Positions 2,258 through 18,180 of a stretch of 64,000 bases of DNA are shown one piece after another. The notes under the pieces were generated by a model that saw nothing but the letters and a program-made list of their open reading frames with translations, was not told the origin of the DNA and did no database searches. Numbering within the stretch: the stretch's first letter is position 1; each line of letters opens with the position of its first letter. Origin of the DNA: Paracoccus subflavus (GTDB lineage: Bacteria > Pseudomonadota > Alphaproteobacteria > Rhodobacterales > Rhodobacteraceae); NCBI RefSeq assembly GCF_004310345.1, contig NZ_SISK01000002.1:62001-126000 (forward strand), written 5' to 3'. Made by a program: the position numbers and the translations under genes.

Positions 2258-2332
2258 GGGCGGTTAGCTCAGCGGTAGAGCACTACGTTGACATCGTAGT
2301 GGCCACTGGTTCGATCCCAGTACCGCCCACCA
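2258..2332 (+). tRNA. tRNA-Val (anticodon GAC)
   Basis: A cloverleaf can be drawn: acceptor stem GGGCGGT paired with ACCGCCC, a D arm starting GCTC, anticodon stem CTACG/CGTAG with loop TTGACAT (anticodon GAC), and a T arm with TTCGATC. The CCA end is encoded (2330-2332). It reads the valine codons GUC and GUU. Confidence 0.96.
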
Positions 2333-2343
2333 TTGTTTTCGCC

Positions 2344-2377
2344 GCCCCCGGCCGGACAGTCGGGGGCCTTTCGTTTT
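2344..2377 (+). terminator. Rho-independent terminator after tRNA-Val
   Basis: Stem GCCCCCG (2344-2350) pairs with CGGGGGC (2361-2367) across a 10-base loop, and is followed by CTTTCGTTTT. It sits 11 bases after the CCA end and before rpmJ. Confidence 0.75.
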
Positions 2378-2412
2378 CCTGCGGCTGCGGGCCGCGTGAT
2401 GGAGAAAAACCG

Positions 2413-2538
2413 ATGAAGGTTCGCAATTCGCTCCGCTCGCTGAAAAGCCGGCACCGCGACTGCCAGGTGGTGCGCCGCAAGGGCCGCATCTATGTGATCA
2501 ACAAGACCAACCGCCGGTTCAAGGCCCGCCAGGGCTGA
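2413..2538 (+). CDS. rpmJ: 50S ribosomal protein L36, zinc-free type
   Basis: A 41-residue, very basic protein starting [14 protein letters not shown] and ending RRFKARQG, matching bacterial L36 of the large subunit. It has a single cysteine (Cys17) and lacks the C-C-C-H zinc ligand set, so it is the zinc-independent form (the C- or YkgO type), as is usual in alphaproteobacteria. A GGAGAAAAACCG ribosome-binding site precedes the ATG. It is monocistronic here, bounded by terminators on both sides. Confidence 0.95.
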
Positions 2539-2576
2539 TCGACCGGTCCCCGTGGATCGCAGGGAGAACGAGACAA

Positions 2577-2599
2577 CCCGCCACGCCGGCGGGTTTTTT
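2577..2599 (+). terminator. Rho-independent terminator after rpmJ
   Basis: CCCGCC (2577-2582) and GGCGGG (2588-2593) form a stem with a 5-base loop, followed by six T (2594-2599). Confidence 0.85.
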
Positions 2600-2769
2600 C
2601 ATGCCGCGGTCGGCGTTGGGGGGAGCCGTCCGGCGATCCGCCTGCACCCCCTTTCCATGGCGCCGCTTTTCCTTTATGGGCGGCCATCCGCCAAGGCGGA
2701 GACCTCCACGGGCCAGCGCTGGACGACATCCCGGCCTGAGCCATAACCCTTTTGCAAAAGGAGAACCCG

Positions 2770-3039
2770 ATGTCGATCACTGTCGAGGAAAAGGCCCGCG
2801 TCATTCAGGAATTCGCGACCGGGGCCAACGACACCGGCTCGGCCGAGGTGCAGGTGGCGATCCTGTCGTCGCGCATCGCCACCCTGACCGAGCATTTCAA
2901 GACCCACAAGAAGGACAACCATTCGCGCCGTGGCCTTCTGAAGCTGGTTGCACAGCGCCGCAAGCTGCTGGACTATCTCAAGCGCAAGGACGAGGCCCGC
3001 TATACGGACCTGATCGGCAAGCTGGGCCTGCGCCGCTGA
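2770..3039 (+). CDS. rpsO: 30S ribosomal protein S15
   Basis: An 89-residue protein starting [15 protein letters not shown], with the S15 signatures [17 protein letters not shown] and [20 protein letters not shown]. It binds 16S rRNA and organises the platform of the small subunit. AAAAGGAGAA lies just upstream of ATG 2770; an upstream in-frame codon at 2752 overlaps this ribosome-binding site and is rejected. The familiar rpsO-pnp neighbourhood is kept, but an unknown gene and its own terminator separate the two. Confidence 0.97.
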
Positions 3040-3071
3040 TCGCGGCACGGCCGACCGCCATCCTGCATCAA

Positions 3072-3100
3072 GCGCCCGCAAACGATTTGCGGGCGCGTTT
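3072..3100 (+). terminator. Rho-independent terminator after rpsO
   Basis: An 11-base perfect stem, GCGCCCGCAAA (3072-3082) with TTTGCGGGCGC (3086-3096), has a 3-base loop and is followed by GTTTGATTTG. Confidence 0.85.
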
Positions 3101-3119
3101 GATTTGCAAAGCGGGATGG

Positions 3120-3134
3120 TTAAGAATTCGTTAA
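3120..3134. promoter_or_regulatory. Perfect CtrA-type box TTAA-N7-TTAA
   Basis: TTAA at 3120-3123 and TTAA at 3131-3134 are separated by exactly 7 bases, the consensus for the cell-cycle regulator CtrA in alphaproteobacteria. It lies 76 bases upstream of the start of the unknown 174-residue gene and after the rpsO terminator, so it can only serve that gene. CtrA binding is inferred from the motif. Confidence 0.6.
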
Positions 3135-3210
3135 AATTCATAGGGCTTTGTCGTAGGCTAAAGGTGGTTTGCGGGCTAGTTTCGCGATGTTTTTGTGAAA
3201 GGAACCGCAC

Positions 3211-3735
3211 ATGGTACTGAGTCTTCTGAAGCCCGTCATGAGCCCATCGCCGTCATCCACCACCACGACCGCGCCCACGACCAATATATCCGCCTCCACC
3301 TCTGCATCTGCGCCCCCCGAGTCGGAGTCCACCACCGAGGCTGCCGGGCAGCAGACAAGCCAGCCCGAGGCGCCCGAGGGGGTGAGGTTCGATTTTTCGG
3401 ACGCTGCCCTGAAACAGATCGAGGCGGCGGCCTTGTCGGCTGAAACAGCGATGATGTCCGGGTCCACCCGGTCCTATGGCCTGAGCAGGTCAGAGGCTCC
3501 TGCGGCAACGTCCGCCGGTCCTGTCGAGCGATCGGCCGATGCCGTCGACCCGACCGAGGAAGATCGCGCCCGCGCCTGGGCCATCCGGGGAATGGAGCGG
3601 GAAAAGCTGCTGAATCTGGTCAGCACGCTGAACGCCACACCTGCCGCCAATCCGGCCGAAAAAGAGGTGGCAGAGTATGCCGCCGCTCAGCCAAATATCC
3701 AGATAGCCCCGTCGTCCGATCGCCTCGTGGCGTGA
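3211..3735 (+). CDS. Unknown 174-residue protein, candidate CtrA target
   Basis: I do not recognise the family. Residues 10-55 are low-complexity Ser/Thr/Ala/Pro. The rest is mildly acidic, with two likely helical stretches: FSDAALKQIEAAALSAE at about 60-76 and a segment with TEEDRARAWAIRGMEREKL at about 114-132. There is no signal peptide, transmembrane helix or cysteine, so a cytoplasmic or secreted linker-type protein is possible. A GAAAGGA ribosome-binding site precedes the ATG. It has its own terminator and a perfect CtrA-type box upstream, pointing to cell-cycle or motility-linked expression. Confidence 0.72.
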   Translation: MVLSLLKPVMSPSPSSTTTTAPTTNISASTSASAPPESESTTEAAGQQTSQPEAPEGVRFDFSDAALKQIEAAALSAETAMMSGSTRSYGLSRSEAPAATSAGPVERSADAVDPTEEDRARAWAIRGMEREKLLNLVSTLNATPAANPAEKEVAEYAAAQPNIQIAPSSDRLVA

Positions 3736-3756
3736 TAAAACCTGTATCGCCCTGTC

Positions 3757-3786
3757 ACGCCCGCAGCCTGTCAAGCTGCGGGCGTT
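3757..3786 (+). terminator. Likely terminator after the 174-residue gene
   Basis: ACGCCCGCAG (3757-3766) pairs perfectly with CTGCGGGCGT (3776-3785) around a 9-base loop. The downstream tract (TTCTGATTATTTC) is only moderately T-rich. Confidence 0.65.
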
Positions 3787-4265
3787 CTGATTATTTCCCC
3801 CAGGAACTTGGACAAGATTTTGGTCTGAATGGTTTTTCATAATCCATTCGGCCAAATGCGTCGTCTTTTCTGTCCTGCGGGCACTTTCTTTTCATGTCCA
3901 GGTTTCTTCCCGGCAGACCCCCTCCAATCCTATGGCGGCAACCATGCAGCCCGGAATCTGCCTTTGTCCGACAATCTGGTTTCCGCCGATGATCGCCCTC
4001 GGCATCTCTGCATGGCGCGAGAGGTCTGAGAGTTCCGAAGAATGTCTCCTCCGGGCACAGGCACTCACCTGCCTGCGCCTGCAAGGGCGGCGAAAGCCCG
4101 AATCGCGCCGGGCTTCCCAAGACCCGTGTTTTCCTGTAATGCCCCGCCATCTGTGACGTGACGCCCCAAGCCCCGGGGCACATGCAAAGGATAGGGGCGG
4201 CGGCAATGGGGCCGCCATAGGACACGGCCGCTGCCAGAGGGCTGGCGCGGCCCAGAGGAAACCAG
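3787..4265 (+). promoter_or_regulatory. Long structured region upstream of pnp, no gene found
   Basis: No convincing coding frame or known RNA family was recognised in these 479 bases. Several hairpins can be drawn: AAGCCCG (4094-4100) with CGGGCTT (4109-4115), a GCCCC/GGGGC pairing near 4163-4179, and GGCGGC (4199-4204) with GCCGCC (4211-4216) about 50 bases before the pnp ATG. In E. coli the pnp leader is a hairpin processed by RNase III for autoregulation, so a similar role is plausible but unproven. A small RNA gene cannot be excluded. Confidence 0.4.
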
Positions 4266-6410
4266 ATGTTCGACGAAGTGAAGAAATCCATCCAGTGGGG
4301 CCAAGAAACGCTCACGCTGGAAACGGGCAAGGTTGCCCGTCAGGCCGACGGCAGCGTCATCGCCACCCTGGGCGAGACCAGCGTCATGGCCAACGTGACC
4401 TTCGCAAAGGAACCCAAGCCGGGGCAGGATTTCTTTCCCCTGACGGTTCATTATCAGGAAAAATACTATGCCGCCGGCAAGATCCCCGGCGGCTTCTTCA
4501 AGCGCGAGGCGCGCCCGACCGAAAAGGAAACGCTGACCGCGCGCCTGATCGACCGGCCTTGCCGTCCGCTGTTCGCGCCGGGCTTCAAGAACGAAACCCT
4601 GGTGATGTGCACGGTCCTGTCGCACGATCTGGTCAACGATCCCGACATCGTCGCGATGATCGCGGCATCGGCCGCGCTGACCATTTCGGGCGTTCCCTTC
4701 ATGGGGCCGATCGGTGCGGCCCGCGTGGGCTTTGCCAACGGCGCCTATGTGCTGAACCCCGAGGTTCAGGATATGGACAACCTGCGCGCCAATCCCGAAC
4801 AGCGCCTGGATCTGGTCGTCGCCGGCACCAAGGACGCCGTGATGATGGTCGAATCCGAGGCCTATGAGCTGACCGAGGAGGAGATGCTGGGCGCCGTCAA
4901 GTTCGGCCACGAACAGATGCAGCCGGTCATCGACCTGATCATCGACCTGGCCGAGGCTGCCGCCAAGGAGCCTTTCGATTTCCGGTCGCCCGACTACAGC
5001 ACGCTCTCTGCCCGCGTGAAGGAACTGGGCGAGGACGGGATGCGCGCGGCCTATGGCCTCATCGACAAGGCCGAGCGGCGCGACGCGATCCAGACGGTGC
5101 GCGAAACGATCGTGGCCAGCCTGTCCGAGGAGGAACTGGCCGATCCGAACCTGGGTTCGGCGCTGAAGAAACTGGAATCCGGTATCCTGCGCGGTGACAT
5201 CATCCGCGGCGGCGCCCGCATCGACGGCCGCGACAACCGCACCGTCCGGGCCATCCAGTCCGAGGTCGGCATCCTGCCGCGCACGCACGGCTCGGCCCTG
5301 TTCACCCGCGGCGAGACGCAGGCCCTGGTGGTCACCACGCTGGGCACCGGCGATGACGAACAGATCATCGACGCGCTGCACGGCAACAGCCGCTCGAACT
5401 TCCTCCTCCACTACAATTTCCCGCCCTATTCGGTGGGCGAGGTGGGTCGCGTAGGGTCGCCCGGCCGCCGCGAGATCGGCCACGGCAAGCTGGCCTGGCG
5501 CGCGTTGCAGGCTGTTCTGCCCGCACCGACGGATTTCCCCTATACCATCCGCCTCGTGTCCGAGATCACCGAATCGAACGGTTCGTCCTCGATGGCGTCG
5601 GTCTGCGGCGGCTCGCTGTCGATGATGGATGCGGGTGTGCCGCTCAAGGCGCCGGTGGCCGGCGTGGCCATGGGCCTGATCCTCGAGGATCAGGACAACT
5701 GGGCAATCCTGACCGACATCCTGGGCGATGAGGATCACCTGGGCGACATGGACTTCAAGGTTGCCGGCACCGCCGAGGGCATCACCAGCCTGCAGATGGA
5801 CATCAAGGTTCAGGGCATCACCCCCGCCATCATGGAGCAGGCCCTGGCCCAAGCCAAGGACGGCCGGCTGCATATCCTGACCGAGATGGGCAAGGCCCTG
5901 ACCGAAGGGCGCCGCGAATTCAGCGCCCATGCCCCGCGCATCGAGACGATGACCATCCCCACCGACAAGATCCGCGAAGTGATCGGTTCGGGCGGCAAGG
6001 TCATCCGCGAGATCGTGGAAACCTCGGGCGCCAAGGTGGACATCAACGACGACGGCACCATCAAGATCGCCTCGGCCAATGCCGATTCGATCAAGAAGGC
6101 CTATGATCTGATCTGGTCGATCGTGGCCGAGCCGGAAGAGGGCAAGATCTATACCGGCAAGGTCGTCAAGCTGGTCGATTTTGGCGCCTTCGTAAACTTC
6201 TTCGGCAAGCGCGACGGTCTGGTTCATGTGTCCCAGATCGCCAACAAGCGCCTGACCCATCCCAACGAGGTTCTGAAGGAAGGCCAGGAGGTCAAGGTCA
6301 AACTGCTGGGCTTTGATGACCGCGGCAAGGTCCGCCTGGGCATGAAGATGGTCGACCAGCAGACCGGCGAGGAAATCGCCGAGAAGAAGGAAGAAACAAC
6401 CGAAGGCTGA
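4266..6410 (+). CDS. pnp: Polynucleotide phosphorylase
   Basis: A 714-residue 3'-5' phosphorolytic exoribonuclease that degrades mRNA to nucleoside diphosphates, usually with the RNase E degradosome. Two RNase PH-like domains are visible (about residues 1-240 and 310-545). The second has the [16 protein letters not shown] and [19 protein letters not shown] signatures of the active domain. A KH domain follows ([15 protein letters not shown], about 565-580), then an S1 domain ([18 protein letters not shown] onward). AGAGGAAACC precedes the ATG. It is full length for the family and is followed by a strong hairpin. Confidence 0.98.
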
Positions 6411-9815: not shown

Positions 9816-9830
9816 TTAGCCGAATCTTAA
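9816..9830. promoter_or_regulatory. CtrA-type box before flgE
   Basis: TTAG at 9816-9819 and TTAA at 9827-9830 are separated by exactly 7 bases, one mismatch from TTAA-N7-TTAA, 45 bases before flgE. It probably drives the flgE-flgK-flgL-flgI operon. Inferred from the motif and the known CtrA control of flagellar genes in this class. Confidence 0.55.
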
Positions 9831-9875
9831 GCCCTGGCATGGATGATCCATGTTGAACCACAAGAAGGTGATGCC

Positions 9876-11186
9876 ATGTCAATGTCTTCCGCAATGAGCG
9901 CCGGGGTTTCGGGGCTGGCTGCGAACTCCACGCGTCTCGCCACCATCTCGGACAATATCGCGAATTCCGGAACGCACGGCTACAAGCGAGTAGAGACCGA
10001 CTTCAACGCCTTTGTGATGAATCAGGGCCGGACAGCCGGGCTGTATTCGGCGGGCGGCGTCACGGCAGCCACGCAAAGGGTGATCGAAGATGACGGAGGG
10101 CTCACTACCACTGGCCATCCTCTGGACATCGCGGTGGCGGGGCGCGGCATGTTGCCGGTAACGTCGATCGTGGGTATCGACAACGGGTTCTCTGATGCCC
10201 CTTTCATGATGACCCGGACAGGGTCGTTCAGAACCGATGCCGAGGGGGTGCTGAGAACCGGTTCGGGACTGGTCCTGATGGGGTGGCCGGCCCAGCCGGA
10301 TGGCACGGTGCCGGTGATGACGCGCGACAGCATGGGCAGCCTTGCTCCGATTGTGGTCAATACCAACCAGACCGCCGGCGATCCGACGACCAGGGTTTCG
10401 CTGGGCGTCAACCTGCCCGCCACGGAAACGCAGCCGGGCGCATCGGGTGCGCCTCTTCCTTTGAAGGTGGAATATTTCGGCAATCTCGGCACCTCGGAAT
10501 ATCTGGACATCAACTTCGTGCCGGACACGTCAGACCCGATGGGCATGTCCAACACCTGGGTGATAGAGATCAGCGATTCTGCATCGGACCCGGCGCTGAA
10601 CCCCATCTCGACCCATACCATCACCTTCAATGACGGGCGGGCCAATGGCGGCAGCATTGCCACCGTCGCACCTGCCGGCAACTACGATCCGGTATCAGGC
10701 TCGATCTCCCTGGCGGTCGGGGGCGGCGTGATGGATCTGGTGATCGGCACACCGGGGGGGACGACAGGCCTGCGGCAGTTGTCGGCCAATTTTTCGCCCA
10801 CCAATATCACCAAGAACGGATCGCCCGTCGGAAACCTGACCACGGTCGAGGTGGATGCCAATGGCTTCCTGAAGGCCAGCTATGACACGGGCTTCATCAA
10901 GACGCTTTATCAGATTCCGCTAGTGGACGTGCCCAACCCCAACGGGCTGAATTCGCTCAGCGCACAGGCCTATACCGTGTCATCGACGTCGGGGAACTTT
11001 TTCCTGTGGGATGCAGGCGACGGACCGACCGGGGCGATCCAGGGTTATGCGCTTGAGGAATCGACCACCGATGTGGCCAAGGAACTGACCCATCTGATCC
11101 AGACGCAGCGCGCCTATTCCTCGAACGCCAAGATCATCCAGACGGTGGACGAGATGCTGCAAGAAACCACCAATATCAAGCGCTGA
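9876..11186 (+). CDS. flgE: Flagellar hook protein FlgE
   Basis: A 436-residue building block of the flagellar hook, exported through the flagellar type III system. The N-terminal D0 rod-family signature is clear (SGLAANSTRLATISDNIANS, then GTHGYKRVETDF). The C terminus has the matching helix (AKELTHLIQTQRAYSSNAKI). The middle is the variable D1/D2 part. ATG 9876 has AAGAAGG upstream; a further upstream frame start at 9843 lacks a site. It is the first gene of flgE-flgK-flgL-flgI, with no flgD or fliK beside it. Confidence 0.95.
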   Translation: MSMSSAMSAGVSGLAANSTRLATISDNIANSGTHGYKRVETDFNAFVMNQGRTAGLYSAGGVTAATQRVIEDDGGLTTTGHPLDIAVAGRGMLPVTSIVGIDNGFSDAPFMMTRTGSFRTDAEGVLRTGSGLVLMGWPAQPDGTVPVMTRDSMGSLAPIVVNTNQTAGDPTTRVSLGVNLPATETQPGASGAPLPLKVEYFGNLGTSEYLDINFVPDTSDPMGMSNTWVIEISDSASDPALNPISTHTITFNDGRANGGSIATVAPAGNYDPVSGSISLAVGGGVMDLVIGTPGGTTGLRQLSANFSPTNITKNGSPVGNLTTVEVDANGFLKASYDTGFIKTLYQIPLVDVPNPNGLNSLSAQAYTVSSTSGNFFLWDAGDGPTGAIQGYALEESTTDVAKELTHLIQTQRAYSSNAKIIQTVDEMLQETTNIKR

Positions 11187-11199
11187 AGGACCCGGGGAC

Positions 11200-12654
11200 A
11201 TGAGCATCGCACGCGCCCTTGGCAACGCCCTGTCGGGACTGACCACGACCGCCCGGGGAACCGAGATGGTGGCGGCCAATATTGCGAATGCCTCGACACC
11301 GGGCTATGCGCGGCGCGATCTTGTCGTCAGCCCCCAGACGGTCGGGGGCAATGCCGGGGGCGTCAGGATCGACGGCGTGTCCCGCGCCGTCAATGCCAGC
11401 ATCCTGTCCGAATTGCGCTCGGCCGAATCCGCGCGCGCCGAGGCTGCGACCCGGCTGACCTTTGCAGCCGAGATCGAAAACGCCATCGGCATTGCCGGCA
11501 ATGCCGGAAGCCTGGGGTCTGCCCTGAACGACTTTCGCGCGGCTCTTGGTTCGGCCGCCAGCCGGCCCGATGATGAGGTTCGGCTGACCCATGCCGTGGA
11601 CAAGGCGCGGGTTCTGGCCCGGCAGTTCAACACCATCTCGGACAAGGTGCAGGCTGCGCGTAGCGCCGCCGATCAGGCAATCGCTGACGATGTCGCCACC
11701 CTGAACGTGTCGCTGACCCAAGTGGCCGATCTCAACCGCAAGATCACTGCCTTGGAGGCGGACGGCTCTGACCCCTCGTCGCTCTACGACCAGCGCCAAG
11801 GCATCATCAGCGAAATCGCCAAGATCGTGCCGGTTCAAGAGGTGATGCGTCCCGCGGGCGCCGTTGCGCTGTTCACCGCCGAAGGTGCGGTGCTGTTGGA
11901 CGGAACGGTTCCCACGGACTTCTCGTTTGCGGCGGCGGGCCAGATCACCCCGGACCAGACGATCGGGGCGCCGCTTGCCTTGTTGACGCAAAACGGCATT
12001 GACCTGTCTTCGCCGCAAATGCGGCTTTATGGGGGCGGGCGGCTGGCTGCAAATTTCGCCATCCGCGATGAACTGGCCCCGGCAGCCCAGTCGCTGGTGG
12101 ACGATCTGGCCATGGACTTGCATGATCGTCTGACCGATCCGGCAGTTGATCCGACCCTTGCGGCGGGAATGGCCGGACTTTTCACCGATGCCGGAGCTTT
12201 TGCCGATCCGGCAAACAAGGCCGGACTGGCCGGGCGCCTCGGGGTGAACTCGGCTCTTGTGATATCCGAAGGGGGCGATGCCTGGCGTTTGCGATCGGGC
12301 ATCGGCGCGGCGACCCCCGGTGCCGTTGGCGATTCATCCCTGCTGATCGCCCTGTCGAACGCCATGGACACAGCACAGGCCGCGCCCAGCGCGACAGGTT
12401 TTTCCGGCACGGCTACGCTGATAGGTCGGCTTGGCGCGGTAGAGTCGCAGATTTCGACCGCAAGGGTGAATGCCCAATCCGCAGCCACCGTCCGCAACAG
12501 TCAGGCCGATACCATCGCCACGCGCTTTCTGGCCGATGGAGTCAATAGCGACGCTGAAATGCAGAAGCTTCTGCAATATGAACAGGCTTATGCCGCTAAT
12601 GCGCGCGTGATCCAAGCCATCCAGACCATGATGGACCAGATATTGGAGATTTGA
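11200..12654 (+). CDS. flgK: Hook-associated protein 1 (FlgK)
   Basis: A 484-residue junction protein between hook and filament. The N terminus has the rod/hook family motif (TEMVAANIANASTPGYARRD-like stretch, residues about 27-47). The C terminus has LLQYEQAYAANARVIQAIQTM, the terminal D0 helix. The centre has the long helical FlgK region. It starts 13 bases after flgE with a GGACCCGGGGAC leader and ends 2 bases before flgL. Confidence 0.94.
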   Translation: MSIARALGNALSGLTTTARGTEMVAANIANASTPGYARRDLVVSPQTVGGNAGGVRIDGVSRAVNASILSELRSAESARAEAATRLTFAAEIENAIGIAGNAGSLGSALNDFRAALGSAASRPDDEVRLTHAVDKARVLARQFNTISDKVQAARSAADQAIADDVATLNVSLTQVADLNRKITALEADGSDPSSLYDQRQGIISEIAKIVPVQEVMRPAGAVALFTAEGAVLLDGTVPTDFSFAAAGQITPDQTIGAPLALLTQNGIDLSSPQMRLYGGGRLAANFAIRDELAPAAQSLVDDLAMDLHDRLTDPAVDPTLAAGMAGLFTDAGAFADPANKAGLAGRLGVNSALVISEGGDAWRLRSGIGAATPGAVGDSSLLIALSNAMDTAQAAPSATGFSGTATLIGRLGAVESQISTARVNAQSAATVRNSQADTIATRFLADGVNSDAEMQKLLQYEQAYAANARVIQAIQTMMDQILEI

Positions 12655-12656
12655 CG

Positions 12657-13667
12657 ATGACGGTTCAATCCATCGGGGACCAGGCCCGCGCGTTTGCGAT
12701 GCAATCTGCATCGAACCGGATCAAGACAACGCTGGCGACGCTGACCGCCGAACTTACCAGCGGAGAGGTTTCCGATCTGGGCGCCCGACTGGGCGGCAAG
12801 ACGCAGAACCTGACCGGGATCGAGGCGCGCTTGGCCATGCTGGCACAATTCAAGTCGAACGCCGCAGAGGCCGCTGCGCATACGGCGGGAATGCAAGAGG
12901 CGCTGACGGCAATCCATTCAATGTCTGAAAAGCTTGGGCAAAGCCTTTACATCGAGCCGGCAGGCACAACCGATGCCTCGGTGCGTGCCCGGTCAACCGA
13001 AGCGGCCACAACATTCCAGACAGTGGTCGGGCGTCTCAATGCATCGGTAGGTCAGCGGTTCCTGTTTTCGGGCATTGCCAGCGACACTCCTCCGCTGGTC
13101 TCGGCCGATGATATGCTGGCAGAATTGTCGAATGTGGTCGGAGGCCTGACAACGGCCGTTGATATGGCCCAAGCGGTTTCGGACTGGTTCGACGCCCCTG
13201 CGGGAACCGGAGGATATGCCGATTTCGCCTATCGTGGCATGGCTGACGGTCTGGCCGTCCCGGTCGGCGAGGATACTACCCTGCTGCTGGAAACTACTGC
13301 ATTGGCTTCCTCTGTTCGAGACACTTTCAAGGGGCTTGCGGCAGCGGCACTGGTTGATCGTGGTGCACTGGCAGGCAATCTCCAGGAGGAACGTGCCCTG
13401 CTCAGGGACGCCGGCAAGAATCTCATAGAGGCTTCACCCGCCTTGGTGGCGGAAATGGCGCAGGTGGGTTATGCCCAGCAAGTCATTGCCAGCACTCATA
13501 CCGAGGGCGAAGCTGCCACAGCCACTCTGCAGACCGCACGCAACACCCTGCGTGAGGCCGATCCTCTTGCAACAGCAACGGCCCTCAACGATGCCGAAAC
13601 AAGGCTGCAGACACTCTATGCGGTGATCGGCCGGTTGTCGCAACTCAAACTGGTGGATTACATTTGA
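12657..13667 (+). CDS. flgL: Hook-associated protein 3 (FlgL)
   Basis: A 336-residue flagellin-like junction protein. It has a flagellin-type N-terminal helix, a central TTFQTVVGRLNASVGQRFLFSG stretch (the FLFSG motif is typical of FlgL/flagellin) and a C-terminal helix ending LQTLYAVIGRLSQLKLVDY. ATG 12657 follows the flgK stop after two bases; the TTG six bases earlier overlaps that stop and is less likely. The family and the position directly after flgK agree. Confidence 0.9.
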   Translation: MTVQSIGDQARAFAMQSASNRIKTTLATLTAELTSGEVSDLGARLGGKTQNLTGIEARLAMLAQFKSNAAEAAAHTAGMQEALTAIHSMSEKLGQSLYIEPAGTTDASVRARSTEAATTFQTVVGRLNASVGQRFLFSGIASDTPPLVSADDMLAELSNVVGGLTTAVDMAQAVSDWFDAPAGTGGYADFAYRGMADGLAVPVGEDTTLLLETTALASSVRDTFKGLAAAALVDRGALAGNLQEERALLRDAGKNLIEASPALVAEMAQVGYAQQVIASTHTEGEAATATLQTARNTLREADPLATATALNDAETRLQTLYAVIGRLSQLKLVDYI

Positions 13668-14767
13668 TGCGACAACTGGTGGCCATCCTTCTTATGACGT
13701 TGATGCCGATCTGGGCCGCAGCGGCCCCCGTTCGGGTCAAGGATCTGGCAGATTTCGATGGTGTGCGGGGCAACGATCTGGTCGGCTATGGCCTTGTAGT
13801 CGGGTTGGACGGGACCGGCGACGGCTTTCGAAACGCACCCTTTACCGAAGAGCTTCTAGCCGGGTTGCTGGAACGGCTGGGCGTGAATGTCACGGACGAG
13901 GCGCTGCGGTCACGCAATGTCGCCGCCGTCGTGGTCACGGCGACGCTGCCGCCCTTTGCCCGGTCGGGCAGCCGGATCGATGTCAGTGTGTCAACGATCG
14001 GCGATGCAAAGAGCCTTTTGGGCGGGACATTGGTGATGACCCCGCTCAAGGCAGCTGACGGCAATATTTATGCGGTTTCACAAGGCTCGATCATTGCGAG
14101 CGGTGCCGCAGTCGAGGGCGAGGCTGCGCGTGTGGTCGAAGGGGTGCCGACATCTGGCAAGATTCCGGCTGGCGCGCGGGTCGAACGCGAAGTCGAGTTC
14201 GACTTTGCGGGAATCGAAAACATTCGCATTGCTCTGCGCAATGCCGATTTCACCACCGCCACGCGGATCGAGGATGCCATCAACCGCGATTTCGACCGCC
14301 GCTTGGCCACTGCTCAGGACAGCGGCACCGTTCTTGTGGAATTCCGGCAGTTGGGGAATGTAAATCCTGCACGTGTCCTTGGCCGCATCGAGAACCTGAC
14401 GGTCGAACCCGAGGATCGCGCCAAGGTCGTCATCGACCACAAATCGGGCACGATCGTTATCGGCGAGCGGGTGCGAATTTCAAGGGTTGCGGTATCGCAA
14501 GGCGCCTTGACGCTTCAGGTCAGCGAGGCCCCTTTGGTTTCACAGCCCAATCCGTTTTCGCGGGGTGAAACGGTCACTGTCCCGCGCACCGTGGCCGAAC
14601 TGCGAAACGAGCCGGGTATCGGTTTTGCCGAAGTCGTGGGCGAAACCTCGCTCAGCGATCTGGTCGAAGGCTTGAACGCTTTGGGCGTTCGGCCGCGGGA
14701 GATGATCGACATCCTGAAATCGATCCATACGGCCGGGGCCTTGCATGCAGAACTGATCGTCGAATGA
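13667..14767 (+). CDS. flgI: Flagellar P-ring protein FlgI
   Basis: A 366-residue periplasmic protein that forms the P ring around the rod. A Sec signal peptide (about residues 1-20, ending WAAAA) is followed by the highly conserved VRVKDLADFDGVRGNDLVGY and GLDGTGDGF segments. The C terminus has EMIDILKSIHTAGALHAEL. The ATG overlaps the flgL stop (TGATG), so translation is probably coupled. Its assembly chaperone, flgA, lies 6 kb away on the other strand. Confidence 0.97.
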   Translation: MRQLVAILLMTLMPIWAAAAPVRVKDLADFDGVRGNDLVGYGLVVGLDGTGDGFRNAPFTEELLAGLLERLGVNVTDEALRSRNVAAVVVTATLPPFARSGSRIDVSVSTIGDAKSLLGGTLVMTPLKAADGNIYAVSQGSIIASGAAVEGEAARVVEGVPTSGKIPAGARVEREVEFDFAGIENIRIALRNADFTTATRIEDAINRDFDRRLATAQDSGTVLVEFRQLGNVNPARVLGRIENLTVEPEDRAKVVIDHKSGTIVIGERVRISRVAVSQGALTLQVSEAPLVSQPNPFSRGETVTVPRTVAELRNEPGIGFAEVVGETSLSDLVEGLNALGVRPREMIDILKSIHTAGALHAELIVE

Positions 14768-14853: not shown

Positions 14854-15414
14854 ATGAAGATCGAAACCACCACCCTGCCCGATGTGCTTGTCCTGACGCC
14901 GCCCCGGTTCGGCGACGAACGGGGCTTCTTTTCGGAAAGCTGGAATCGCCGAACCCTGTCCCAGGCCGGCCTTGATCTGCCGGACTTTGTCCAGGACAAT
15001 CATTCGCTGTCTGCACATGTCGGCACCATTCGCGGTTTGCATTATCAGGCGCCGCCTTTTGCCCAAGGCAAACTGGTGCGTTGCGGGCGGGGATCGCTCC
15101 TGGATGTTGCTGTGGACGCTCGCCTGGGCAGTCCCTTTTATGGGCAATGGGTTGCGGTTGCTCTCAGCGATCGGAACGGGCGGCAGCTATGGGTGCCGCC
15201 AGGTTTCCTGCATGGCTTCGTCAGCTTGGAGCCTGACACCGAAATCATTTACAAATGCACCGCCCACTATAACCGCGAGAGTGACGGGGCTGTCCGGTGG
15301 GACAGCCTGGGCATCGACTGGGGGGTGACCGATCCCATCCTATCGCCCAAGGATCGCGATGCTCCCCCCTTTGCGGAATGGGATTCTCCTTTTGTCTATG
15401 GCGGTGGGGCATGA
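14854..15414 (+). CDS. rfbC: dTDP-4-dehydrorhamnose 3,5-epimerase
   Basis: A 186-residue cupin enzyme that epimerises dTDP-4-keto-6-deoxyglucose at C3 and C5, the third step of dTDP-L-rhamnose synthesis. [19 protein letters not shown], and RGLHYQ with catalytic-type His63 are all present, as is [14 protein letters not shown] at 14836 in the same frame is an alternative start; neither has a strong ribosome-binding site. It is the first gene of rfbCBDA and overlaps rfbB by four bases. Confidence 0.95.
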
Positions 15415-16451
15415 GGATTCTTGTGACCGGCGGCGCCGGCTTTATCGGCTCGGCCGTGGTGCGGCTGGCTATCCGACGGGGGCACGAGGTCGTCAACGTC
15501 GATGCGCTGACCTATGCCGCCAATCCTGCCAACATCGCCGAGGCGGCCGGCAGCTCCCGCTATCGCTTCGAGCATGTGGACATTCGTGATCGGGCAGCGC
15601 TGGACCGGGTCTTTGCCCAGCACCGGCCCGATAGCGTGATGCACCTGGCCGCAGAAAGCCATGTTGACCGCTCGATCGACGGGCCCGCCGCCTTTGTCGA
15701 GACAAACGTGATCGGCACCTTCAATATGCTAGAGGCCGCCCGACGCCACTGGATCGACCAAGGCCGGCCCGATGGATTCCGCTTCCACCACATCTCGACC
15801 GACGAGGTGTTCGGCTCTCTGGGGGAAACCGGGCAGTTTACCGAATCCACGCCCTATGATCCCCGCAGCCCCTATTCCGCCAGCAAGGCCGGATCGGATC
15901 ACCTGGTGCGCGCGTGGCACGAAACCTATGGATTGCCAGTTGTCCTGACCAACTGTTCCAACAACTACGGACCCTATCATTTCCCCGAAAAGCTGGTGCC
16001 GGTGGTGATCCTGAAGGCCCTGTCGGGCGAGCCGATCCCGGTTTACGGCGATGGCGGCAACGTGCGGGATTGGCTGTATGTCGAGGATCACGCCGATGCG
16101 CTGCTGCTGGTTCTGGAAAGGGGCCGGGACGGTCGCAGCTATAATATCGGCGGCGAAAACGAGGCCAGGAACATCGATCTTGTGCGAACGATCTGCGCGC
16201 ATATGGACGATCTGCACCCGCGGGGGGCGCCCCATGCCGAGCTGATCACCTTTGTGGCGGACCGGCCCGGCCATGACCGCCGCTATGCCATCGACCCTTC
16301 GCGCATCCGGGACGAACTGGGTTGGCGGCCCTCGGTCACAGTCGAGGAGGGATTGCGGCGCACGGTGGAATGGTATCTGGATAATCGCGACTGGTGGCAG
16401 CCGCTTCTGGGCCGCAACGGTGTCGGTCATCGTCTGGGCCAAGCGCGATGA
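15411..16451 (+). CDS. rfbB: dTDP-glucose 4,6-dehydratase
   Basis: A 346-residue short-chain dehydrogenase-like enzyme converting dTDP-glucose to dTDP-4-keto-6-deoxyglucose with bound NAD. The N-terminal [11 protein letters not shown] is the Rossmann loop. [12 protein letters not shown], the acid/base pair in [11 protein letters not shown], and the YSASK active-site Tyr/Lys are all visible, followed by [12 protein letters not shown]. The ATG lies in the four-base overlap with rfbC. It is full length. Confidence 0.97.
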
Positions 16452-17305
16452 CCGGCCTGCTGGTTTTGGGCAGATCAGGCCAGCTTGCCCAGGCTCTTGC
16501 GCGCCTTGCTCCGGACGCTGCATTCTGGGGCAGGGCCGAGGCTGACCTGACCGATCCCAAGGCCGTCGCATCCCGGTTGCGCGATCATCGGCCCTCGGCT
16601 GTCATCTTTGCCGCCGCCTATACGGCAGTTGATCGGGCCGAAACCGATGCCGAGGCTGCCATGTTGCTGAATGCCACGGCTCCGGGGCTGCTGGCCCAGG
16701 CTGCGGCTGATTTGGGTATCCCCTTCCTGCACGTCTCGACCGATTACGTCTTCGATGGATCCGGCAATGCCCCGCGCGGCGAGGATGCTGCCCCCGCCCC
16801 CTTGGGCGTTTACGGCCGGACCAAGCTGGAGGGGGAACGGCGGGTCGCCGCGGCGGCAGGGCAGTGGGCCATTTTGCGCACCTCCTGGGTTTTTTCCCCG
16901 GATGGCGTCAACTTTGTCAAGACGATGCTGCGGCTGGGTGCCGAGCGCGACCGGATCAATGTTGTGGCCGACCAGATCGGCGGTCCGACCGAGGCAGGGC
17001 GGATCGCTGCCGCCTTGCTGGAGATGGCGCACCAGATGCGGACCGACCCGCACAAGGGCGGGCTTTACCATTTCGCCGGGGCCCCGGATGCCAGTTGGGC
17101 CGATCTCGCCCGCGAGATCATGGCCCGCGCGGGCTTGCCCTGTGCCGTTTGTGACATTCCGTCCGGTGACTACCCGACCCCGGCCCGGCGTCCGGCCAAC
17201 TCCCGGCTGGACTGCGGGCGCATTGCGCGCGATTTCGGCATCGGCCGTCCCGACTGGCGGGACGATCTGGACAGGGTTCTGCAGCATCTGGGATACGCGA
17301 CATGA
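16448..17305 (+). CDS. rfbD: dTDP-4-dehydrorhamnose reductase
   Basis: A 285-residue NAD(P)H-dependent enzyme giving dTDP-L-rhamnose. The Rossmann start [35 protein letters not shown] and the YGRTKLEGE Tyr/Lys motif identify it. Its ATG is within the rfbB stop (four-base overlap), and it overlaps rfbA the same way, so the four genes form one tightly coupled operon. Confidence 0.96.
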
Positions 17306-18180
17306 CCGCACGCAAGGGCATCATTCTGGCCGGAGGTTCCGGGACACGCCTTTATCCGATCACCCTGGGCGTGTCCAAACAGCTTTTGCCGCTTTATGAC
17401 AAGCCCATGATCTATTATCCGATCTCGGTACTGATGCTGGCCGGCATCCGCGAGATTGCGATCATCACCACGCCCGACGACCAGGCGCAGTTTCAGCGCC
17501 TTCTGGGGAATGGCGGGCAGTGGGGACTGCGCTTTGAATGGATTGTCCAGCCGTCGCCGGACGGCTTGGCCCAGGCCTATCTCTTGGCCGAGGATTTCCT
17601 GGCCGGCGCGCCTTCGGCCATGGTGCTGGGGGACAACATTTTTTTCGGGCACGGCTTGTCGGATTTGCTGAAGGACGCCGATCAGCGGAGAGAGGGCGGG
17701 ACGGTTTTCGGCTATCGGGTGTCCGACCCGGAACGCTATGGCGTGGTGGATTTCCAATCGGATGGAAAGGTCCGTGCGATCATTGAAAAACCGCATTTGC
17801 CGCCGTCGAATTTTGCCGTCACGGGCCTTTATTTCCTCGACGGTACGGCCTCTGGGCGGGCAAGAACCGTCCGGCCGTCGGATCGCGGCGAACTGGAAAT
17901 CACCACTCTGCTGGAAAGCTATCTGCACGAGGATCTGCTGACCGTCGAAAAGATGGGCCGCGGCTTTGCCTGGCTGGACACGGGCACCCATGGCAGCCTG
18001 CTGGATGCCGGCAATTTCGTACGCACCCTGGAAAAACGGCAAGGTCTGCAAACCGGTTGCCCCGAGGAAATCGCCTATGAGGCCGGCTGGATTACCGAAG
18101 ACATGCTGCGCGAACAGGCCCAGAGATTTTCGAAGAATGCCTATGGGCGCTATCTGATGGGGCTGGTCGGTCAGGGTTGA
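17302..18180 (+). CDS. rfbA: Glucose-1-phosphate thymidylyltransferase
   Basis: A 292-residue nucleotidyltransferase making dTDP-glucose from dTTP and glucose 1-phosphate, the first committed step of the pathway. The signature ILAGGSGTRLYPIT, the KPMIYYP motif, and the LGDNIFFG metal site are clear. It is the last gene of rfbCBDA. Its last 10 bases overlap the end of a glycosyltransferase gene on the other strand, leaving no room for a terminator. Confidence 0.97.
   Translation: MTARKGIILAGGSGTRLYPITLGVSKQLLPLYDKPMIYYPISVLMLAGIREIAIITTPDDQAQFQRLLGNGGQWGLRFEWIVQPSPDGLAQAYLLAEDFLAGAPSAMVLGDNIFFGHGLSDLLKDADQRREGGTVFGYRVSDPERYGVVDFQSDGKVRAIIEKPHLPPSNFAVTGLYFLDGTASGRARTVRPSDRGELEITTLLESYLHEDLLTVEKMGRGFAWLDTGTHGSLLDAGNFVRTLEKRQGLQTGCPEEIAYEAGWITEDMLREQAQRFSKNAYGRYLMGLVGQG

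Follow-up and report, generated by a model that had tools for sequence, protein, structure and literature searches.

A candidate CtrA-activated promoter ahead of an orphan gene behind rpsO in Paracoccus

CtrA regulons vary greatly among alphaproteobacteria. The published full CtrA site is TTAA-N7-TTAA, and sites of this kind are described for Caulobacter and for the fla2 promoters of Rhodobacter (Cereibacter) sphaeroides in the portion of PMC6180460 drawn on here. The same portion places the box of CtrA-activated R. sphaeroides promoters with its end 23-24 nt from the transcription start, near the -35 element, and connects Caulobacter CtrA half-sites that overlap the -10 or the core promoter with repression (PMC6180460). 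For D. shibae, the excerpted text of PMC6473078 gives predicted CtrA sites for com genes, dgc2 and flagella, and the CtrA regulon of this organism is also treated in PMC4046655, as far as its excerpt goes. Another regulon, that of CenR, is marked by an upstream TGA-N8-TGA direct repeat in the excerpt of PMC9275681. Judging by titles and abstract openings, our literature search turned up no study devoted to the CtrA regulon in Paracoccus itself.

The stretch of DNA that we analysed, here called the window, is 64 kb long and comes from a Paracoccus subflavus genome of 3.18 Mb in 25 contigs. It contains a single exact TTAA-N7-TTAA, TTAAGAATTCGTTAA, located 91 nt ahead of an uncharacterised gene of 174 codons that we refer to as X (Table 1). 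Dinucleotide shuffles of the window gave a mean of 0.04 such sites, with 4 of 100 shuffles reaching one. The initial annotation had pointed to this perfect box and to the isolation of the gene by terminators on both sides, and both observations hold: the order is rpsO, hairpin, box, X, hairpin, pnp, with box and gene enclosed by two terminator-like hairpins. Terminator-like sites are frequent in this region, with 11 between positions 2000 and 5000 against 3.2 expected. A mechanical list of open reading frames includes minus-strand frames that cross the box. We take these to be chance, and the box therefore serves X or nothing.

Two other kinds of element were considered at the locus and set aside. 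An RNA element was rejected, since a search of 2300-4400 against Rfam at E ≤ 1 returned only a chance-level sRNA match (2320-2369, scoring 17.7 bits where the cut-off is 35). CenR is an unlikely binder, as its TGA-N8-TGA repeat does not occur between rpsO and X; the window holds 13 such repeats against 19.3 expected, the nearest of them inside X at 3441-3454.

Table 1. Features of the rpsO-X-pnp region, in window coordinates.
Feature	Position	Strand	Basis
rpsO, upstream of X	2770-3039	same strand as X	named from sequence
rpsO terminator-like hairpin, 5' of X	3072-3096	+	terminator scan
Full CtrA-type box TTAA-N7-TTAA, TTAAGAATTCGTTAA	3120-3134	+	exact match; conserved in close orthologues
TTAAAAT: right half-site of the box and 5' anchor (TAAAA) of the family promoter-like element	3131-3137	+	
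TAGG: degenerate TGGA anchor of the window, predicted -35 region	3154-3157	+	alignment; putative promoter role
TAGTTT: predicted -10 hexamer	3177-3182	+	TAA column frequencies of the element alignment; putative
AAGGA: likely ribosome binding site	3199-3203	+	read from sequence
Gene X: orphan, 174 aa, fast-evolving, genus-restricted in searches	3211-3735	+	
X codons 64-83: first predicted helix, right after F-D-[LF]-S	3400-3459	+	AlphaFold2 model, alignment
X codons 116-142: best-predicted helix, EEDRARAWAIRGMEREKLLNLVSTLNA	3556-3636	+	AlphaFold2 model
Terminator-like hairpin 3' of X	3757-3785	+	terminator scan
pnp	4266-6410		named from sequence

X is a real gene. In a codon comparison its dN/dS was 0.29-0.56 in 11 of 12 pairs; in the twelfth (L051/L054, 111 codons, dS 0.02) there were too few changes for its ratio of 2 to be informative. 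Homologues of X at E ≤ 1 numbered 26, and all that carry an organism name are from Paracoccus. Of 125 genomes of the genus, 123 yielded rpsO, and the sequence that follows it was read in 118; the other five loci were truncated at contig ends, partial or not retrieved. An iterated profile placed X directly behind rpsO in 34 of these 118 genomes, and there was one displaced copy besides. The 34 loci, two of which (L051 and L091) are cut by contig ends, are what remained of 37 frames kept at first, once L050_0, L102_0 and L046_0 had been dropped as wrong-frame upstream stretches. Profile A1 matched 13 of the 125 genomes; a match in G049 (E 4.5e-4, with an in-frame TAG and on the strand opposite to rpsO) and a second match in G028 (E 1.5e-4) were not counted as X. 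P0025 and P0026, which have odd N-termini, were excluded from the first HMM and from A3 (49 rows).

The only stable neighbours of X are rpsO and, mostly, pnp. When profile A2 was run over 394 genomes of the family, it gave no convincing relative of X outside Paracoccus: of seven matches at E ≤ 0.01, one was to G000 itself, and the other six were weak (E 0.0013-0.0079, four of them with an in-frame TGA) and are taken as chance. As far as these searches reach, X appears to be restricted to Paracoccus. Within the genus its presence changes 11 times on an rpsO tree that is built from a short alignment of 270 columns and has weak support.

The initial annotation had made conservation of the box upstream of orthologues one test of its proposal. 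This conservation is clear among the seven close orthologues (L035, L038, L042-L045 and L049), of which six carry the exact box and one, L044, has a single mismatch. Identity among the seven is 0.93 in the left TTAA and 1.00 in the right TTAA, as compared to 0.59 in the spacer and 0.44 and 0.49 in the flanks; the five bases directly after the box reach 0.86 and are part of a second element, described below. Family-wide, however, only 14 of the 34 carrier upstream regions have an exact box (500 shuffles: mean 0.056, maximum 1), and the first 300 nt behind rpsO in the 84 non-carriers hold one in a single case (L119). The boxes of carriers also differ in placement, lying 88-92 nt before the ATG in nine cases, 80 nt in two, 50 nt in two and 46 nt in one. 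On the same weak rpsO tree there are at least nine changes of box state among carriers, with box carriers found in separate parts of the tree, and the boxes look to have been recurrently gained and lost ahead of X. Recurrent boxes in four placements before one fast-evolving gene make X a natural case for the gain and loss of CtrA targets. The one non-carrier with a box, L119 (G037), has two overlapping exact boxes made of three TTAA half-sites, 71-96 nt past the rpsO stop. They precede what appears by eye to be an aldehyde dehydrogenase gene, at the place behind rpsO that X occupies in other genomes.

The genome from which the window comes encodes CtrA: over residues 1-225 of the Caulobacter query the protein shares 71% identity, and the next best regulator reaches 34%. 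Over the 125 Paracoccus genomes, TTAA pairs occur 1717 times at N7, 475 times at N6 and 261 times at N8, so that N7 is 3.6 times as common as N6 and 6.6 times as common as N8, and it exceeds both in 124 of the 125 genomes. The corresponding counts in the window's own genome are 15, 4 and 1, and from the N6 and N8 counts about 2.5 of the 15 N7 sites are therefore expected by chance. A reversed control, AATT-N7-AATT, was less clear, with 9 matches in the own genome against the 15 real ones and counts above those of the real pattern in several genomes; the spacing comparison therefore carries the argument. The initial annotation had proposed X as a candidate member of the CtrA regulon. That proposal gains from the encoded CtrA, the genus-wide N7 excess, the conservation of the half-sites and the recurrence of exact boxes across lineages.

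At seven of the 15 own-genome sites, a mechanically called gene with an over-cut-off Pfam domain begins no more than about 120 nt downstream, the domains being GGDEF, response regulator, DsbA, Capsule_synth, Mg_chelatase (ComM type), GH108 with PG_binding_3, and Bac_transf. The remaining sites comprise one at a gene whose lamin-tail domain falls below threshold, the site at X, one (L011) beyond the 3' end of a histidine kinase gene, which is therefore not counted as a target, and five (L007, L008, L012, L013 and L014) without a nameable gene; one frame at L007 was scanned for families and matched none. The exact box at L010 (1501-1515) lies about 50 nt ahead of the GH108/PG_binding_3 lysozyme gene, which is presumably of the type used in gene transfer agent lysis. 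Our counts suggest that exact full sites alone could outline the Paracoccus CtrA regulon, with chance accounting for about one site in six here. When one mismatch is allowed, the window has three sites against 0.73 expected. A one-mismatch CtrA-type box, TTAGCCGAATCTTAA, is found at 9816-9830, directly ahead of flgE. The flgE-flgK-flgL-flgI run occupies 9843-14767, with FlgL named by weak flagellin matches and position, and beside it, at 15297-18177, are nucleotide-sugar genes (GDP_Man_Dehyd/Epimerase, RmlD and NTP_transferase).

Twenty of the 34 carriers lack an exact box, yet all of them have a second signal. We fitted NTAAAA, followed 16-18 nt on by the best match to TGGATT, over the 34 upstream regions. 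The element is found in all 34, a presence that is partly by construction because the element is a best fit; its distance to the ATG was not selected by the fit. The spacing is 17 nt in 29 of the 34, TGGA itself occurs in 24 and TGG in 29, and the lowest score is 3 of 6, a score shared by the window, whose TAGG stands 17 nt after TTAAAA. The element starts 76-82 nt before the ATG in 33 of the 34 loci, and at exactly 80 nt in 18. The exception, L088 (G076), has it at 44 nt with an open reading frame that stays open, apparently through a 35-base loss relative to L089. Among the 84 non-carriers, NTAAAA of any kind occurs in the first 300 nt of only one; a score of at least 4 is reached in none of them, as opposed to 30 of the 34 carriers, and a separate pattern for the element likewise matches none, as opposed to 29 of 34. 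Column frequencies were taken from the 27 loci with 17-nt spacing (L051 and L091 left out). In these, TAAAA, the T at position 23 and the G at position 25 are invariant, and there is a weaker TTTC before the element and a weaker TAA about 17 nt after it.

The displaced copy of X bears on this element as well. Among the non-carriers there were 38 in which pnp was not reached, and a further 4.5-4.6 kb was read in 37 of these. The 38th, G071, holds X about 2.2 kb behind rpsO (L025, at about 1340-1965). L025 was not used to define the element, and it nevertheless has its own copy of it with the ATG at the usual 80 nt, as if gene and promoter had moved together. The extra 4.5-4.6 kb of the 37 other non-carriers contained neither a displaced copy of X nor an element with an ATG at a distance like that of L025.

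The right TTAA of the window box is part of the TAAAA element, which counts against the CtrA reading: a longer and stricter promoter-like element, not visible to the initial annotation, covers the right half-site, is common to relatives that have no box, and may have a regulator of its own. Two other assignments of the element were discarded. It can be read as a leader peptide (K-[IM]-...-F-W) in one frame in several members, but in that frame the window and L038 have TAG for TGG, and L050 has it in a different frame from X. TGGATT could also be taken as a -10, 17 nt from TTAAAA; this was set aside because its position 2 is G (0.89) where a -10 needs A, and because the TAA block lies downstream at the distance expected of a -10. 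Either assignment is putative.

The arrangement is most simply read as a putative sigma-70 promoter whose -35 lies around TGGA and whose -10 is TAANNT; transcription would then start about 23 nt before the ATG of X, giving a leader of that length. Such a promoter would be activated from a site centred near -61, which in the clade of the window is a full CtrA box. A generic consensus scan found no sigma-70 promoter at X, and the -35 and -10 of the window are weak. Within this geometry, TTAAGAATTCGTTAA is most likely a site for phosphorylated CtrA that activates the single-gene promoter of X, a reading in which we have moderate confidence. Phosphorylated CtrA would bind at the box and switch on a promoter serving X alone. 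The box occurs in several lineages, and it is therefore likely that CtrA switches X on; we infer activation rather than repression. Against this reading, the window box would end about 54 nt before the predicted start, farther than known activating sites.

An alternative that we regard as possible but unlikely is that a gene-specific factor reads TAAAAT and then TTTCTGGA, with TTAA-N7-TTAA a partial by-product and its left half a peculiarity of the clade. The near-fixed distance of the element from the ATG in 33 of 34 carriers, its scarcity in non-carriers and its presence at the displaced L025 all favour such a factor. So does a strict version of the element (at most one mismatch), whose eight matches in the 125 genomes all fall at the X locus; this version recovers only 8 of the 34 carrier loci, however, and wider targets could be missed. 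A gene-specific factor would leave unexplained both the higher identity of the left TTAA than of the sequence beside it in the seven close orthologues and the exact boxes in other placements (L036, L041, L085, L098 and L104), and the element could also be an ordinary sigma-70 -35 with an activator contact. The divergence of the X protein, which reaches about 20% identity while the promoter geometry is near-fixed, belongs with a broader and more speculative picture, one that we put forward only tentatively and hold to be unlikely. X and its 80-nt promoter (TAAAA, about 17 nt, TGGA, about 51 nt, ATG) might form a self-contained cassette with a dedicated regulator, possibly X itself, to which different Paracoccus lineages repeatedly add CtrA boxes in different places, wiring a lineage-specific disordered hub protein into the CtrA cell-state switch.

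It is improbable that CtrA binds as a repressor or without effect on X. The boxes 46-50 nt before the ATG in L036, L041 and L098 would overlap or lie near the predicted core promoter, which counts against activation at these loci and recalls the Caulobacter half-sites whose overlap with the -10 marks repression in the part of PMC6180460 used here, but the window box and eight other exact boxes are placed 88-92 nt before the ATG, 5' of the predicted -35, in the position of activation. X offers a clean one-gene, one-box test of CtrA control.

The protein gives little to connect it with described families. The window protein matched no Pfam family at E ≤ 10, and against NCBIfam it had one chance-level match (E 1.4; 7.7 bits, the cut-off being 200). 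The 49 members of the family gave chance-level matches alone in the domain libraries, and Pfam, NCBIfam and the PDB held no relative of X above chance. The initial annotation was thus right that there is no recognised domain, as it was about a Ser/Thr/Pro-rich N terminus, these three residues making up 28 of the first 50. AlphaFold2, run with the 49 sequences, gave a mean pLDDT of 60 and a pTM of 0.25, with helices predicted at residues 64-83, 116-142 and 148-158 and much of the remainder at low confidence. The helix at 116-142 has block means of pLDDT of 82-92, and R121 and A124 are invariant in 31 sequences. Three parts are conserved: an M-hydrophobic stretch at the N terminus, F-D-[LF]-S and the EExRARAWAI helix. 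Of 32 complete members, 23 end in Ala, at an overall Ala content of 27%. By this prediction most of X would be disordered, apart from two helical motifs. From the predicted disorder and helices alone, our guess is that X may serve as a linker or adaptor, with helices that bind its partners; the usual C-terminal Ala may, again as a guess, be a recognition or degradation tail.

The link to flagella and chemotaxis that the initial annotation drew from the CtrA box was not borne out by X, which has no domain and no stable neighbour but rpsO and, mostly, pnp; in two carriers, G020 and G075, FliF is present but Flagellin_N gave no match at E ≤ 0.001. In these two the flagellin may be lost or very divergent. 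The 49 members contain, at E ≤ 1, neither the FliK C-terminal hook-length domain, which we take to be Pfam Flg_hook, nor the FlgM Pfam domain, by which the anti-sigma factor FlgM should presumably be recognisable, nor the PopZ C-terminal domain, which we take to be Pfam DUF2497. A role for X in flagellar assembly or export, as a FliK-like or FlgM-like protein, is very improbable. In its favour, a UniRef entry for P0020 bears the name Flagellar hook-length control protein FliK, the flgE run of the window is found 6 kb past X, and the overall build is loosely similar; but the 49 members match no flagellar Pfam family at E ≤ 1, the carriers G020 and G075 lack a Flagellin_N match, and the distance from rpsO to a weak FlgL-type match varies from about 11-13 kb in G091 and G070 to about 100 kb in G059.

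How, then, does the locus compare with known systems? PopZ polar scaffolds have a short N-terminal motif, a Pro-rich disordered linker and late helices. X is of similar length and has a similar overall build, but there is no sequence relation to PopZ and no such Pfam match in the 49 members of X. X differs from the CtrA regulon of D. shibae, as given in the excerpts used, in having no convincing homologue in 394 genomes of the family. Kinds of gene that are predicted CtrA targets in D. shibae in the excerpt of PMC6473078 have exact boxes in the Paracoccus genome of the window, namely a com gene and one for c-di-GMP synthesis, and its flgE has a one-mismatch box. The differences from the R. sphaeroides fla2 promoters lie in the predicted distance between box and start, about 54 nt as opposed to 23-24 nt in the portion of PMC6180460 drawn on, in the nature of X as an orphan rather than a flagellar gene, and in the overlap of the right half-site with an extra conserved element. 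What the locus shares with Caulobacter and with R. sphaeroides fla2, on the evidence of the same portion (PMC6180460), is TTAA-N7-TTAA, an encoded CtrA and a gene with a short predicted leader. The gene family itself is undescribed in the libraries searched, and its regulatory logic is of a known kind.
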